Below are positions 58,261-64,000 of a stretch of DNA of 64,000 nt, piece by piece. Where the stretch lies: positions 3,472,001 to 3,536,000 of the forward strand of contig NZ_JACHZG010000001.1 of assembly GCF_014193425.1 (NCBI RefSeq). Reading direction: 5' to 3'. Under the pieces are notes generated by a model that was not told the origin of the DNA, did not search any database, and saw only the letters and a list, made by a program, of their open reading frames with translations. This stretch comes from Microlunatus antarcticus (GTDB taxonomy: Bacteria; Actinomycetota; Actinomycetes; Propionibacteriales; Propionibacteriaceae). Each line of letters begins with the position of its first letter. Position 1 is the stretch's first letter. The position numbers and the translations under genes were made by a program.

Positions 58261-58656
58261 CTAGTGCGCGTGATCCCCGCGGTAGTACTCGAAGATCAGG
58301 CCGGTGAGCGTCACCGTGCCGAACGCGACGCCCAGGATCATCAGCCACCAGCCGAAGACCGGCCCGAGGATGAAGAGGGTGAACGTCAGGCCGACGAACA
58401 GCGGCCACTTGCTCTGCGGCGGGAAGAAGCCGAGCTCGCCGGCACCCTCCGCGATCTCGCCCGACTTCTTGTCCTCCGGGCGAGGGTCGATCCGACGTGC
58501 GAGGAGGCCCAGGTACAGGGCGATCATCAGCAGCAGGAAGAACGTCAGGATGAGCGCAGCGGTCCCCGTGGGGTCGTTGCTCATCAACCAGTAGACGGGG
58601 GTGATCGCCGCGACGAAGACCGTCAGGGAGATGAAGACCCAGGTCTCAGCCTTCAT
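58261..58656 (-). CDS. ctaF: Cytochrome c oxidase subunit IV
   Basis: This 131-residue actinobacterial subunit has four helices in two pairs (about 8-25, 34-53, 84-103, 105-122). It starts [20 protein letters not shown] and ends in a short polar tail. The ATG overlaps the ctaD stop (ATGA). Confidence 0.94.
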
Positions 58657-60482
58657 CCTCGGCCGGCCTCCTTGTCGTTGAAGTCAGCCGAGGGCGGGGA
58701 CTGGTTGGGGTGCTGCTCGTCGTACGCCTCGACCGGATCGGTGGACTCCCCGCTGACGCGCTGCTCCAGCAGCGTGCGGCGACCGGTGTCGTCCGCGGCG
58801 TCGACCAGGGTGTCGTTGAGCTCGCCGTTCATGTCGTTGTACTCCGACAGCGCGACCTCGGGGTGGTGCAGGTCGAAGGCCGGGGCCTCGGACCGGATCC
58901 GCGGGATCGAGGTGAAGTTGTGCCGCGGCGGCGGGCAGGAGGTCGCCCACTCGAGCGAACGGCCCCAGCCCCACGGGTCGTCGACGCCGACCTTCGGGTT
59001 GTTGCGGCTCTTCCACACGTTGTAGACGAACGGCAGCATCGAGGCGCCGAGCAGGAACGCACCGGCCGACGAGATCTGGTTGAGGACCGTGAAGCCCTCG
59101 TTCGGCAGGTAGTCGGCGTAGCGACGGGGCATGCCCTCGACGCCGAGCCAGTGCTGGACGAAGAACGTGGCCTGGAAGCCGATGAACAGCAGCCAGAAGT
59201 GGACCTTGCCCAGGCGCTCGTCGAGCATGTGGCCGGTGAACTTGGGCCACCAGAAGTAGAAGCCGGCGAACATCGCGAACACGACCGTGCCGAACACCAC
59301 GTAGTGGAAGTGAGCGACCACGAAGTAGGAGTCGGAGAGCGCGAAGTCGAGCGGCGGCGAGGCCAGGACGACACCGGTCAGACCACCGAAGAGGAAGGTG
59401 ATCAGGAAGCCGACGGCCCAGAGCATGGGTGTTCGCATGGCGATGTTGCCGCCCCACATGGTGCCGATCCAGTTGAAGAACTTCACCCCGGTCGGGACCG
59501 CGATGAGGAACGTCATGAAGGAGAAGAACGGCAGGTTGACCGCACCGGTCACGTACATGTGGTGGGCCCACACGGCCACCGAGAGGGCCGCGATCGACAG
59601 CGTCGCGCCGACGAGGCCGACGTAGCCGAAGATCGGCTTGCGGCTGAAGACCGGCAGGATCTCGGTGATGATGCCGAAGAACGGCAGCGCGATGATGTAG
59701 ACCTCGGGGTGCCCGAAGAACCAGAACAGGTGCTGCCACAGGATCGGGCCGCCGTTCGCGGCATCGAAGACGTGGGCGCCCAGCTTGCGGTCCGCCTCGA
59801 GCACCAGCAGGGCCGCCGCGAGGATCGGGAACGCGATCAGCACGAGGATCGACGTCACCAGGATGTTCCAGGTGAAGATCGGCATCCGGAACATCGTCAT
59901 GCCGGGGGCACGCATCGTGATGATCGTCGTGATGAAGTTGACCGCGCCGAGGATCGTGCCCAGACCGGCCATGTAGAGGCCCATGATCCACAGGTCACCG
60001 CCGACGCCGGGCGAGTTCACGGCGTCGCTGAGCGGGGCGTACGCGAACCAGCCGAAGCTGGCGGCGCCCGACGGGGACAGGAAGCCGGAGACCGTGACGA
60101 GGCCGCCGAAGAGGTAGAGCCAGTACGACAGCATGTTCAGCCGCGGGAACGCCACGTCGGGCGAACCGATCTGCAGCGGCATGATCGCGTTCGCGAAGCC
60201 GGCGAAGAGCGGCGTCGCGAAGAGCAGCAGCATGATCGTGCCGTGCATCGTGAAGAACTGGTTGTAAGTCTCCCGCGACATGTACTGCATGCCCGGGAAG
60301 GCCAGCTCGGCGCGGATGCCCAGCGCCAGGATGCCGCCCAGGAAGAAGAACAGCATCGTGGTGATGAAGTAGAGGTTGCCGATCACCTTGTGGTCGGTGG
60401 TGACCATCCACTTCCACGAGATCGTCCCCAGCTGTCGCTTGGGGGTCGCGATCTCCGTCGCGGTGCGCTGGAGCGTCGTCAT
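58653..60482 (-). CDS. ctaD: Cytochrome c oxidase subunit I
   Basis: This 609-residue subunit holds haem a and the haem a3-CuB centre where oxygen is reduced. Twelve helices are predicted. [15 protein letters not shown] has the CuB His and Tyr; HHMYVTGA gives further CuB His, and [11 protein letters not shown] the haem ligands. It overlaps ctaC and ctaF by 4 bp on either side. Confidence 0.97.
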
Positions 60483-61366
60483 CGCGTGCCTCCCTGCTGA
60501 GCTGCGGCCGGCTCGGGCTGCCCGGTGTTGCCGGGCTCACCCACCGGGTTGGGGATTGCTGCGCCCTTGGCCTGGCCGGTCTGGCCCTTGGCCACGAGCG
60601 TCTTCAGGTGGGCCTCGTACTCGGCCTCGCTGACCACGTGGACCTCGAAGAGCATCGAGGAGTGGTAGGTGCCGCAGAGCTCGGCGCACTTGCCGGCGAA
60701 CACGCCCTCACGGTTCGGGGTCACCGTGAAGTGGTTGTCCCGGCCCGGGATGACGTCCATCTTCTCGTAGAAGACGGGCACCCAGAAGGAGTGGTTGACG
60801 TCCGGCGAGGAGAGGTTGAAGCGAACGGTCTTGTTCACCGGCAGGTAGAGGGTCGCCCACTGGTTGATGGTGCCGGTCTCCCACACGTCCGTGCCGACGG
60901 CCGCGTTGCCCGCCGACTCGTAGTTGAAGGTCCAGGCCCACTTCTGCCCGACGACGTCGACGGTCACGTCGGGGGTCGGGTTCTTCTGCACGACGTTCTG
61001 CGCGAGGACCGTGTAGTAGAACAGCACGCCGATGACGACGAACGGCGCCACCGTGTAGAAGATCTCCATCGGCAGGTTGTAGCGGTTCTGCTTCGGCATG
61101 TCGTTGTGGTTCGTCTTGTAGCGCACCGCCGCCCAGATGACCAGGGCGTAGACCGCGATGCCGATCGAGCCGGCCGCGATCCAGGTGCCGATCCAGAGGT
61201 CACCGATTGCCGGGGCCTGAACGGTGCCGGCCTCCGGCAGCCCGAGCCGCTTGAGCTGCGCGGTCGTCTCCGGGGAGCACCCCGTCAGCAGCGTCAGCGC
61301 CAGTGCGCTCACCGCCACTCCACCGCGCAGACCGACGCGTCGCGCCCGATCTCTGCTCACACCCAC
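60479..61366 (-). CDS. ctaC: Cytochrome c oxidase subunit II (lipoprotein)
   Basis: This 295-residue subunit carries the CuA centre. The N-terminal signal ends in LLTGCSPE (Cys30), so it is lipid-modified. Two helices (about 57-77 and 100-120) precede the cupredoxin domain, where [12 protein letters not shown] provides the CuA ligands. The GTG at 61366 has GAGGAGAGG five bases upstream; ATG 61387 and GTG 61360 are alternatives. First gene of ctaCDF. Confidence 0.96.
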
Positions 61367-61575
61367 TCTGGCCTCTCCTCGGAACATGCCCACCCGGGCC
61401 GGACGACGAGTCGTCCCCGTGCGTCGCGCTTGGCGTGCACCCACCCGCCGGTGTTACCCGTCGTGAGGGCTGTGACTCAGGTGCCTGGAGGGCAGTCTGC
61501 GTCTCGATCTTTGCTCGGTCACAGTAACGCAGGAAGCCCAGGGGGCCGTTGCGGGCCCGGACGTATCTTTCCCCC

Positions 61576-62721
61576 GTGGCGGAGGTGCGAACGCCGGTCT
61601 TCCTCGACTGTTCTTCAGGTGAACCCCTGCTCCCAGAGGCACGTGACGCATGGGTTCTTGCCGCGTCCTCGGGGTGGGGCGACCCCCAGCGGCTGCACCG
61701 ACCGGGCCGGCTGGCCGCGCAGGCCCTCGACTCCGCCCGCGAACGTGTCGCAGCCCACGTCGGCGCCCGTCCCGACGAGGTCGTCCTGACCGGTCCTCTG
61801 GCGCCGACCGCGCAGGCGGCGGTGGCCGGCCTGGTGCAGGGACGCCGTCGGGTGGGGAACCTCGTCGTCACCTCCACGGTCGAGCACTCCGCCGTGCTGG
61901 CCGCGGCCGCCGCGTACGGCGAGCACGTGGCCGTCGGCGTCGACCCCCTCGGACGCGTCGACCTCGAGGCCTGGACGGAGGCGGTCGGACGCCCCGGGGT
62001 CGCGCTCGCCTGCCTGCAGGTCGCCAACCACGAGGTCGGCACCCGCCAGCCGTACGCCGCGGCGGCGCAGGCGTGCCGCGCGGCCGGGGTGCCCCTCGTG
62101 CTGGACGCCACCACGGCGCTCGGGCGGCTGGACACCACGGCTCTGGGTGACTGGTCGGTGCTGCTCGGCTGGGCGGGCGCGTACGGCGGACCGGCCTCGG
62201 TCGGGCTGATGGTCGTGCGGCGCGGCACCCGCTGGCGGGCGCCCTACCCCGCCGACGACCACCAGCAGGGGCGCTGGCCGGGGGTCGTGGACGTCCCCGC
62301 CGTCTGGTCGGCCGCCGCGGCCCTCGACACGGTGGTCGCCACGCGTGAGGTCGTCGGCGCGCGTCAGCACGCCCTGGTCGACCGGCTGCGCCGCGAGGTC
62401 GCCGCCCGGGTGCCCGACGTCGACGTGGTGGGCGACCCGGACGACCGGGCGCCGCACCTGCTGACCTTCTCGGCCCTCTACGTCGACGGGGAGACCCTGA
62501 GCCTCGAGCTGGACCGGGCGGGCTTCGCCGTGGCCAGCGGCTCGGCCTGCAGCGCGAGCAGCGAGCACCCCTCCCACGTCCTGGCCTCCATGGGCGCGCT
62601 CACCCACGGCAACGTGCGGCTCGGGCTCACCCGGACGACCACCGAGGCCGAGGTGGAGGCGTTCCTCGACGTGCTCCCCGGGGTCGTCGCCGAGATCCGC
62701 GACCGCCTCGGCGCCGCATGA
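61576..62721 (+). CDS. Cysteine desulfurase-like (NifS fold) protein lacking the PLP lysine
   Basis: This 381-residue protein aligns with IscS/NifS desulfurases. Kept are His104 (TVEHSAVL), Asn151 (ANHEVGTRQPY), Asp177 (VLDATT) and the active Cys325 (GSACSASSEHPSHV). The Lys that forms the Schiff base (HKxxGPKG) is replaced: the segment reads GWAGAYGGPASVG, with Ala202 at the Lys site. The GGTE loop for PLP phosphate is also lost. It is probably not a normal desulfurase, or acts as a sulfur carrier. TATCTT lies six bases before GTG 61576. It is coupled to a TusA gene. Confidence 0.85.
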   Translation: MAEVRTPVFLDCSSGEPLLPEARDAWVLAASSGWGDPQRLHRPGRLAAQALDSARERVAAHVGARPDEVVLTGPLAPTAQAAVAGLVQGRRRVGNLVVTSTVEHSAVLAAAAAYGEHVAVGVDPLGRVDLEAWTEAVGRPGVALACLQVANHEVGTRQPYAAAAQACRAAGVPLVLDATTALGRLDTTALGDWSVLLGWAGAYGGPASVGLMVVRRGTRWRAPYPADDHQQGRWPGVVDVPAVWSAAAALDTVVATREVVGARQHALVDRLRREVAARVPDVDVVGDPDDRAPHLLTFSALYVDGETLSLELDRAGFAVASGSACSASSEHPSHVLASMGALTHGNVRLGLTRTTTEAEVEAFLDVLPGVVAEIRDRLGAA

Positions 62722-62990
62722 CCGCGCCCCTGGACGGCTCCGACGGCTCCGACGGCTCTGACGGTCCTGACCGCCCGGCCGCCCTCACCCTGGACTGCAC
62801 CGGGATGCGCTGCCCGCGCCCGATCATCGAGATCGCCCGGCGCATCGGCTCGGTCGCGGTCGGCGAGACCGTCGAGCTCCTGGCCGACGACCCCGCGACG
62901 GCGCCGGACCTCGCCGCCTGGTGCCGGATGCGCGGTCACACCCTCCTCCGCTCCGCCCCGCCCCGCTTCCAGGTGGTCCGCGACCGCTGA
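62718..62990 (+). CDS. TusA-family sulfurtransferase
   Basis: This 90-residue protein has the TusA fold with the sulfur-carrying Cys32 in LDCTGMRCPRPIIEIA. TusA proteins accept a persulfide sulfur and pass it to tRNA or molybdenum cofactor synthesis. The N-terminus has a short tandem repeat (DGS, from four 9-bp units at 62733-62768). Its ATG overlaps the desulfurase-like gene's stop, so they are probably a functional pair. Confidence 0.9.
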   Translation: MTAPLDGSDGSDGSDGPDRPAALTLDCTGMRCPRPIIEIARRIGSVAVGETVELLADDPATAPDLAAWCRMRGHTLLRSAPPRFQVVRDR

Positions 62991-63044
62991 CCGGAGGTGG
63001 GATCCTGGCTGCTCGGTGGACCGACGACGAGGGAGCCAGGACGT

Positions 63045-64000
63045 ATGAAGGTGGCCATGGTGTCGACCTATCCCCCGCGACCGTGCGGGATCGGGGTCTT
63101 CGCGGCCGACCTGCACGCCGCGGCCCGGGCCGCGGACCCGGCCCTCGAGCTGGAGGTCGTGGCCATCGACCAGGACCTCGGCGGCGACGTGGACCCCACC
63201 GACGCGCTGGACCGGCCCGAGGTCAGGTGGCACCTGCGCCAGCACGACCGGCGCGACTACGACCGGGTCGCCCGTGAGCTGGCCGCCTCCGACGTGGACG
63301 TCGTCCTCGTCGAGCACGAGTTCGGGATCTTCGGCGGGACGGCCGGCGACCACCTCGTGACCCTGCTGGCCGGGGTCGGGCGTCCGGTGGTGCTGACCCT
63401 GCACACCGTGCTCACGCACCCCAGCCCCGCGCAGGCCTCCGCGCTGCGCCGCGTGTGCGCGCTGGCGACGCTCGTGACCGTCTTCACCGAGACCGCCCGG
63501 CGGATGGTCGTGACCTCGGGGGCGGTCCCGTCGGGCCGCATCCGCGTCGTGCCGCACGGCGTGCCCGCGCTCGTCGTCGCGCACGAGGCGGCCCGGGCCG
63601 CGGCGGCCAGCGCGTCGGCCGACGTCTCCGACGACCTCTCGCTGCACGTGCTGCGCGGCCGTACGGTGCTCTCCACCTTCGGCCTGATCTCGTCGGGCAA
63701 GGGCATCGAGCTGGCGATCGAGGCCCTCGCCCAGGTGGTGCCGACCCACCCCGAGGTGCTCTACCTGGTCGCGGGCCAGACGCACCCCGAGGTCGTGCGG
63801 CACGAGGGCGAGGTCTACCGGGAGGGCCTCCAGCGGCTGGTCGCCGAGCTCGGGCTCGGTGACCACGTGCACTTCCTCGACCGGTTCCTCACCGTCGAGG
63901 AGCTGAGCGTGCTGCTCGCCTCCACCGACCTCTACCTGACGCCCTACCGCTCGCGCGAGCAGATCGTCTCGGGCGCCCTGACCTTCGCGGTGGCCGCCGG
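63045..64000 (+). CDS. GT4-type glycosyltransferase (3' end beyond window)
   Basis: The first 318 codons are visible and stay open to the edge. The N-terminus VAMVSTYPPRPCGIGVFAADL is the GT4 acceptor-side glycine loop. A donor-side motif STFGLISSGKGIELAIEALAQVV and the start of the EX7E region (SREQIVSGALTFAVAAG) lie at the end. Substrate is unknown. GGAGCCAGGA precedes the ATG at 63045. It follows the TusA gene by 54 bp. Confidence 0.87.
   Translation, partial: MKVAMVSTYPPRPCGIGVFAADLHAAARAADPALELEVVAIDQDLGGDVDPTDALDRPEVRWHLRQHDRRDYDRVARELAASDVDVVLVEHEFGIFGGTAGDHLVTLLAGVGRPVVLTLHTVLTHPSPAQASALRRVCALATLVTVFTETARRMVVTSGAVPSGRIRVVPHGVPALVVAHEAARAAAASASADVSDDLSLHVLRGRTVLSTFGLISSGKGIELAIEALAQVVPTHPEVLYLVAGQTHPEVVRHEGEVYREGLQRLVAELGLGDHVHFLDRFLTVEELSVLLASTDLYLTPYRSREQIVSGALTFAVAA

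Follow-up and report, generated by a model that had tools for sequence, protein, structure and literature searches.

What role is left to a protein with the fold of a cysteine desulfurase once the lysine that should hold its cofactor is missing? PLP is thought to define the cysteine desulfurases, and a locus at which the PLP lysine has been lost separates the role of sulfur carrier from the chemistry. One such locus lies in a 64,000-nucleotide stretch of the Microlunatus antarcticus genome, referred to here as the window, where the gene of a lysine-less desulfurase-fold protein overlaps tusA. The locus is widespread in the actinobacterial class, and several losses of its PLP lysine have left the persulfide loop, the substrate-carboxylate residues and usually TusA in place.

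A desulfurase fold lacking the PLP lysine

The gene at 61576..62721 (+ strand, GTG start) encodes 381 amino acids with the aminotransferase class V fold. This assignment comes from Pfam Aminotran_5 (82.1 bits, above the cut-off), from an AF2 model built on a 119-row alignment (pLDDT 95.9, pTM 0.93), and from its best fold matches, IscS and NFS1. The curated NCBIfam models do not take the protein in: TIGR03402 NifS gives 204.4 bits against a cut-off of 530.75, and the IscS models score lower.

At the Schiff-base position stands Ala202 (GCG, 62179..62181); Lys occupies this place in all 29 canonical IscS-like rows and in 99 of the 177 aligned family members. The canonical S-[AG]-H-K reads W199-A-G-A202. 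In the alignment, residues 74-77 are PLAP (61795..61806) instead of the GGTE/SGTx phosphate loop. Residues 76, 180, 199 and 201, belonging to the phosphate cup and the ring contacts, are replaced, so that the equivalents of Gln180 and His201 are lost. His104 is kept, and so is Asp177 (62104..62106), the equivalent of the pyridine-nitrogen ligand. Also present are Cys325 (TGC, 62548..62550), the persulfide-loop cysteine in its SGSAC motif, and the equivalents of two substrate-carboxylate ligands, Asn151 (62026..62028) and Arg348 (62617..62619), all on the + strand. A sequence-only reading of this DNA had reported Ala202, the loss of the GGTE loop and the retention of Cys325, His104, Asn151 and Asp177, and each of these residues is found as described, with the same numbering in the GTG-start frame. 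The protein differs from the class I desulfurases of the IscS/NifS type (E. coli IscS, M. tuberculosis IscS 4isy, human NFS1) in lacking the PLP lysine, the phosphate cup and Gln180.

Two simple accounts of the missing residue can be set aside. Another lysine reaching the PLP site, which the sequence-only reading proposed to look for, is excluded by the sequence itself: the window protein contains zero lysines, as do 51 of the 78 lysine-less proteins aligned here, and a shifted lysine therefore cannot replace the missing one. Base composition as the sole cause is rejected as well, since the catalytic Lys is the only lysine in 31 of 92 lysine-bearing proteins, and high G+C alone thus does not remove it.

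The stop codon of the gene overlaps the start of tusA (62718..62990, + strand) by 4 bp, in an ATGA. This is the sole TusA match in the genome assembly, which is 95% complete and comprises 18 contigs. The product scores 59.9 bits against a Pfam cut-off of 28.6 and has an intact Cys32-Pro33 in a CPRP motif (Cys32, 62811..62813, + strand), which place it in the TusA family; under the stricter NCBIfam TusA equivalog it scores 51.8 against 78. The coupling to a TusA with an intact Cys32 claimed earlier is thereby borne out. A short Gly-Ser-Asp repeat occupies residues 7-16 at the TusA N-terminus (62736-62765), ahead of the Pfam-matched part 24-79.

Directly 3' of tusA lies a glycosyltransferase-like frame (families 4 and 1; 62997-63998), which replaces the pfkB-erpA-nadA flank of many relatives. 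The divergent neighbour is ctaC (60479..61444, - strand), encoding cytochrome aa3 oxidase subunit II (NCBIfam aa3_CtaC_Actin, 296.7 bits against 250); on the same strand are ctaD, oxidase subunit I (58653..60482; Pfam COX1, 535.5 bits), and a ctaF-like gene for oxidase subunit IV (58261..58656; Pfam Cyt_c_ox_IV, 172.2 bits).

Distribution and repeated loss of the lysine

Ala202 is neither a sequencing error nor a lone mutation in a family with normal lysines, a possibility raised with the first reading. The gene was found in six of the nine genus genomes searched, the window genome included, with protein identities of 67-91% in the pairs compared, and Ala stands at 202 in all six, five of them other genomes than that of the window. 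Three of the nine lack the gene. Among the 108 remaining genomes of the family sample none gave a clear orthologue, the best match outside the genus reaching 1.5e-42.

Conservation of Ala202 among actinobacterial homologues, which the sequence-only reading had asked about, is not what the class displays: most orthologues keep Lys, and lysine loss as a general rule of the family is rejected. Among 83 loci taken as orthologues from 148 evenly drawn genomes of the class, 8 are lysine-less (L001, L056, L078, L081, L089, L090, L091 and L095), a count that may be low because weaker matches were left unsorted; weak matches indistinguishable from ordinary IscS were left out, and very divergent lysine-less orthologues may be missed. 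An order sample contributed 2 lysine-less loci among 23 new ones (L135, L142), and L004, L006, L008 and L010 are further cases. Two families, f34 and f35, were sampled deliberately and are lysine-less in 30 of 30 loci read in each, a set that leaves aside 8 more matches in f34 and, in f35, the lower-ranked ones; the Janibacter sequences fall in f34 in the tree. The annotation "cysteine desulfurase" may accordingly be wrong across much of these two families.

The alignment comprises 177 family members, of which 99 have Lys and 78 do not, a ratio that reflects the choice of samples; L158 repeats L078 and was omitted. L070, L080, L082, L083, L092, L093 and L094, fragmentary or irregular and all lysine-bearing, were dropped from the trees and from the residue and lysine tallies. 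Asp is the second most common replacement of the lysine (18 of 78). All 18 Asp-site proteins (L187-L189, L193-L196, L198-L201, L203-L207, L089 and L091) are in f35, mostly as SARDW, and the replacement is the same as in Archaeoglobus fulgidus IscS.

The lysine was lost more than once in actinobacteria. Eight changes are required on a quick tree of 116 family rows, where well-supported branches force 5 of them; on a careful tree of 75 rows the number is 9 (9-10 across bootstraps), with 4 forced. PLP-site columns were excluded from both. A single origin of all losses, with the lysine-less rows in one clade, is rejected (AU p = 1.3e-6). With groups named after a tree was seen, a common origin is not rejected for the window genus and f34 (p = 0.36), nor for the window genus with f34, f35 and L090 (p = 0.27), and the loss in the window genus may therefore share its origin with that in f34.

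Outside the class, 20 of the 25 relatives found were read (21 rows, one genome being present twice; in three rows with a shifted pairwise alignment the string itself was read). The site string contains lysine in all of them, an indication that this residue is the ancestral one. The order in which the site decays looks like lysine first and pocket later. L004 (Gln) and L142 (Leu), apparently recent losses, retain Thr76, His104, Ser199 and His201, whereas in f34, f35 and the window genus much of the pocket has gone along with the lysine.

Residues and partners kept after the loss

Lysine-bearing orthologues of the same class share the TusA/ctaC locus with the window protein at 38-57% identity, and retain the cofactor site: Lys202, His104 and Ser199 are present in 92 of 92 rows and Thr76 in 90 of 92. 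Across 90 of these rows, 60 positions are at least 97% conserved, and the invariance of these positions was then scored in the 78 lysine-less rows. L003 and L048 were left out of these counts because the chosen start cut off the Cys region, although the Cys is present in their alignment. The residue sets were drawn from PMC7188994 and general background. According to that paper, SspA Arg340 and Asn150 bind the cysteine carboxyl, while the ring nitrogen of PLP is bound by SspA Asp175. We treat Arg348 and Asn151 as the counterparts of SspA Arg340 and Asn150, and Asp177 corresponds to Asp175.

The outcome separates two halves of the active site. Nine of 10 positions in the substrate-carboxylate and Cys-loop set are fully invariant in the lysine-less rows, against 0 of 6 in the cofactor-contact set (0 of 5 without Lys202) and 7 of 44 among the remaining conserved positions. 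For the substrate and Cys-loop set against the rest, Fisher's p is 1.9e-5, a descriptive value given that the rows are related and the sets were drawn by the authors. The persulfide-loop core with Cys325, Asn151 and Arg348 is invariant in 78 of 78 lysine-less proteins while the PLP contacts decay: the phosphate-cup residues 76 and 199, both lost in the window protein, are kept in only 12% and 26% of rows. His104 is kept in 60% and Asp177 in 73 of 78 (94%).

The sequences remain under purifying selection. By the Nei-Gojobori method, dN/dS is 0.13-0.21 in the four close pairs within the genus. All 15 close lysine-less pairs together span 0.08-0.27, and 8 lysine-bearing pairs span 0.06-0.20.

The partner persists as well. 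Among the lysine-less loci, 64 of 78 have a TusA found downstream, and every one of these 64 keeps Cys-Pro; among the lysine-bearing loci the figures are 92 of 99 and 88 of 92, the other 4 being gapped. Of the genomes with the 14 lysine-less loci where no downstream TusA was found, 12 were searched: 11 carry a TusA on a different contig, which may be of a different type, and G065 yielded none anywhere. TusA thus occurs somewhere in 67 of 68 lysine-less genomes tested. Within the genus, all 6 genomes with the gene have it, as one match each at the locus, and none of the 3 without the gene does; in f34 it is present in 30 of 30 tested genomes with the gene against 2 of 12 without a gene match, these 12 being chosen by the authors from 41 such genomes. 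Fusion to TusA is seen in 10 lysine-bearing proteins of one genus (L033, L036, L037, L041-L043, L045-L047 and L054; f20 g21) and in 1 lysine-less protein (L176, f34). No TusA was detected downstream in the lysine-bearing L007 and L031 of Nocardioides lineages or in the lysine-less, Janibacter-like L008, L010 and L169; the same holds for the lysine-bearing L084-L088 from small genomes (f6 g7), which have ctaC on the opposite strand. A match between L031, which is of the same order as the window, and L007 (Nocardioides alkalitolerans) suggests that the window comes from the order of Nocardioides.

Within the fetched stretches, 169 of 177 loci, among them 78 of 78 lysine-less ones, carry ctaC in opposite orientation to the desulfurase-fold gene; the 8 loci where it was not found are all lysine-bearing, 4 having less than 1 kb of upstream sequence and 4 yielding none. 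The sequence-only reading had taken the oxidase genes as a sign of sulfur delivery during oxidase or cofactor assembly, an argument drawn wholly from neighbourhood that the wider comparison does not favour. The oxidase gene points the opposite way, and a match to the window CtaC was not found in the fetched stretch of 20 relatives outside the class. The other flank of related loci often carries pfkB, erpA and nadA (clusters 2, 3 and 6, in 45, 32 and 24 of 57 neighbourhoods; clusters came from a simple ORF script, with one representative of each named). Given this frequent erpA and nadA flank, the neighbours favour Fe-S supply at least as much as oxidase assembly. A term search of a review of oxidase assembly proteins (PMC9145763) did not find the word "desulfurase".

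A candidate persulfide relay and its rivals

With covalent PLP binding gone, classical cysteine desulfuration has very probably been lost. The reading to which we give an even chance is that this IscS/NifS homologue takes part in a PLP-independent persulfide relay to TusA. Cys325 would accept sulfane sulfur from another source, which might be an enzyme of the genome (SufS or the IscS-like protein that bears the lysine) or a small persulfide bound at Asn151 and Arg348, and would pass it from a persulfide on Cys325 to Cys32 of the co-translated TusA. Behind the relay stand a protein without lysine, a decayed PLP site, a retained Cys loop with Asn151 and Arg348, purifying selection and linkage to tusA. 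The persulfide carrier put forward in the sequence-only reading fits these data best. The loss is found throughout the genus sample and is recurrent; what did not survive is any notion of Ala202 as a rule in actinobacteria. A bolder version, tentative and rather doubtful, is that actinobacteria have repeatedly converted a PLP desulfurase into a cofactor-free sulfurtransferase, in which the Asn151/Arg348 pocket would hold a carboxylated sulfur donor, for instance cysteine persulfide or mercaptopyruvate, whose sulfur Cys325 would take up and hand to TusA.

The nearest structural precedent for the transfer step is the E. coli IscS-TusA complex (PDB 3lvj), in which the desulfurase-loop cysteine, IscS Cys328, faces TusA Cys19 (PMC2854127). 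There the desulfurase generates the persulfide itself, using PLP, whereas the window protein lacks the PLP lysine. At the positions that we take to be equivalent to the TusA-interface residues of E. coli IscS, 63 of 78 lysine-less rows retain Asp52 and 73 retain Arg55; Trp45 is replaced by Arg in 76 of 78, and Glu49 is not kept.

Several observations count against the relay. In the window protein, other residues stand at the presumed Trp45 and Glu49 positions, and no TusA was found downstream of 14 of the 78 lysine-less genes. The frequent retention of Asp177 and His104 means that a cofactor-like ligand may remain, and the conservation of Asn151 and Arg348 may be structural. Three of nine genus genomes lack the gene, and two deep genus pairs have dN/dS of 0.38 and 0.41 (Nei-Gojobori).

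An unlikely alternative follows A. fulgidus IscS: without the lysine no sulfide would be made, and the loop cysteine would serve as a ligand in iron-sulfur cluster assembly. In PMC7585200, A. fulgidus IscS, with Asp for Lys, is stated to have no desulfurase activity and to give such a cysteine ligand, and the same role is suggested for Methanosarcina acetivorans IscS1, which is also without the lysine. The window protein resembles A. fulgidus IscS in its replaced lysine and kept loop Cys; 4hvk and 4r5f, which are A. fulgidus IscS, are among its fold matches, Asp is the second commonest replacement in the family, and erpA is frequent in related loci. However, the A. fulgidus protein is archaeal, 27% identical and works with IscU, while the linked partner here is TusA; A. 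fulgidus IscS is not known to be TusA-linked. The only IscU-type match of the window genome (L219) stands about 113 bp past sufS, far from the window locus, and erpA is absent beside the gene within the window. Since the actinobacterial losses are nested among lysine-bearing relatives, in a tree built without A. fulgidus, their origin is likely separate.

Fold-type-I enzymes are dimers with shared sites, and in serine palmitoyltransferase the lysine-less LCB1 plays the part of an inactive subunit. That the window protein likewise pairs with and regulates an active desulfurase is distinctly unlikely. The genome does keep potential partners. Its SufS (L212) scores 513 bits on TIGR01979 and a desulfurase-like protein (L214) 402.7 bits on TIGR01976, both above the cut-off. 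The third, L213, is the IscS-like protein that bears the lysine, with a THAHKLGGP-like site in L002; its best model, TIGR03402, gives 359.6 bits and falls short of the cut-off. Yet identity to the IscS-like protein is 38%, a genome search placed none of the three genes near the window gene, and the Cys loop and carboxylate residues are stricter than the other conserved positions.

Quite improbable is non-covalent binding of PMP or PLP with lysine-independent chemistry, perhaps on a preformed cysteine-PLP adduct. It would draw on the retention of Asp177, Asn151 and Arg348, on the recombinant A. fulgidus IscS that reportedly carries PMP, and on sugar dehydratases, some of which use His in place of Lys. 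The poorly kept phosphate-cup residues 76 and 199 and the lost Gln180 and His201 equivalents speak against it. Decay after loss of function, for which the absence of the gene from three genus genomes and of a clear orthologue from the rest of the family sample might be cited, is highly improbable and already disfavoured by the low dN/dS of the close genus pairs, the open frame, the invariant Cys loop and the intact, high-confidence predicted fold.

A lysine-less IscS is not new in kind, the A. fulgidus precedent being published. As far as the literature matches listed show, what is new is the repetition of the loss at one TusA-linked actinobacterial locus and its spread through families, together with a decayed cofactor site set against invariant persulfide and carboxylate residues; a word search of the open-access literature gave, among the matches listed, no title on this family. 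Genus g3, in which lysine-bearing members occur together with lysine-less ones including L142, offers natural before-and-after pairs for probing the charging of TusA.
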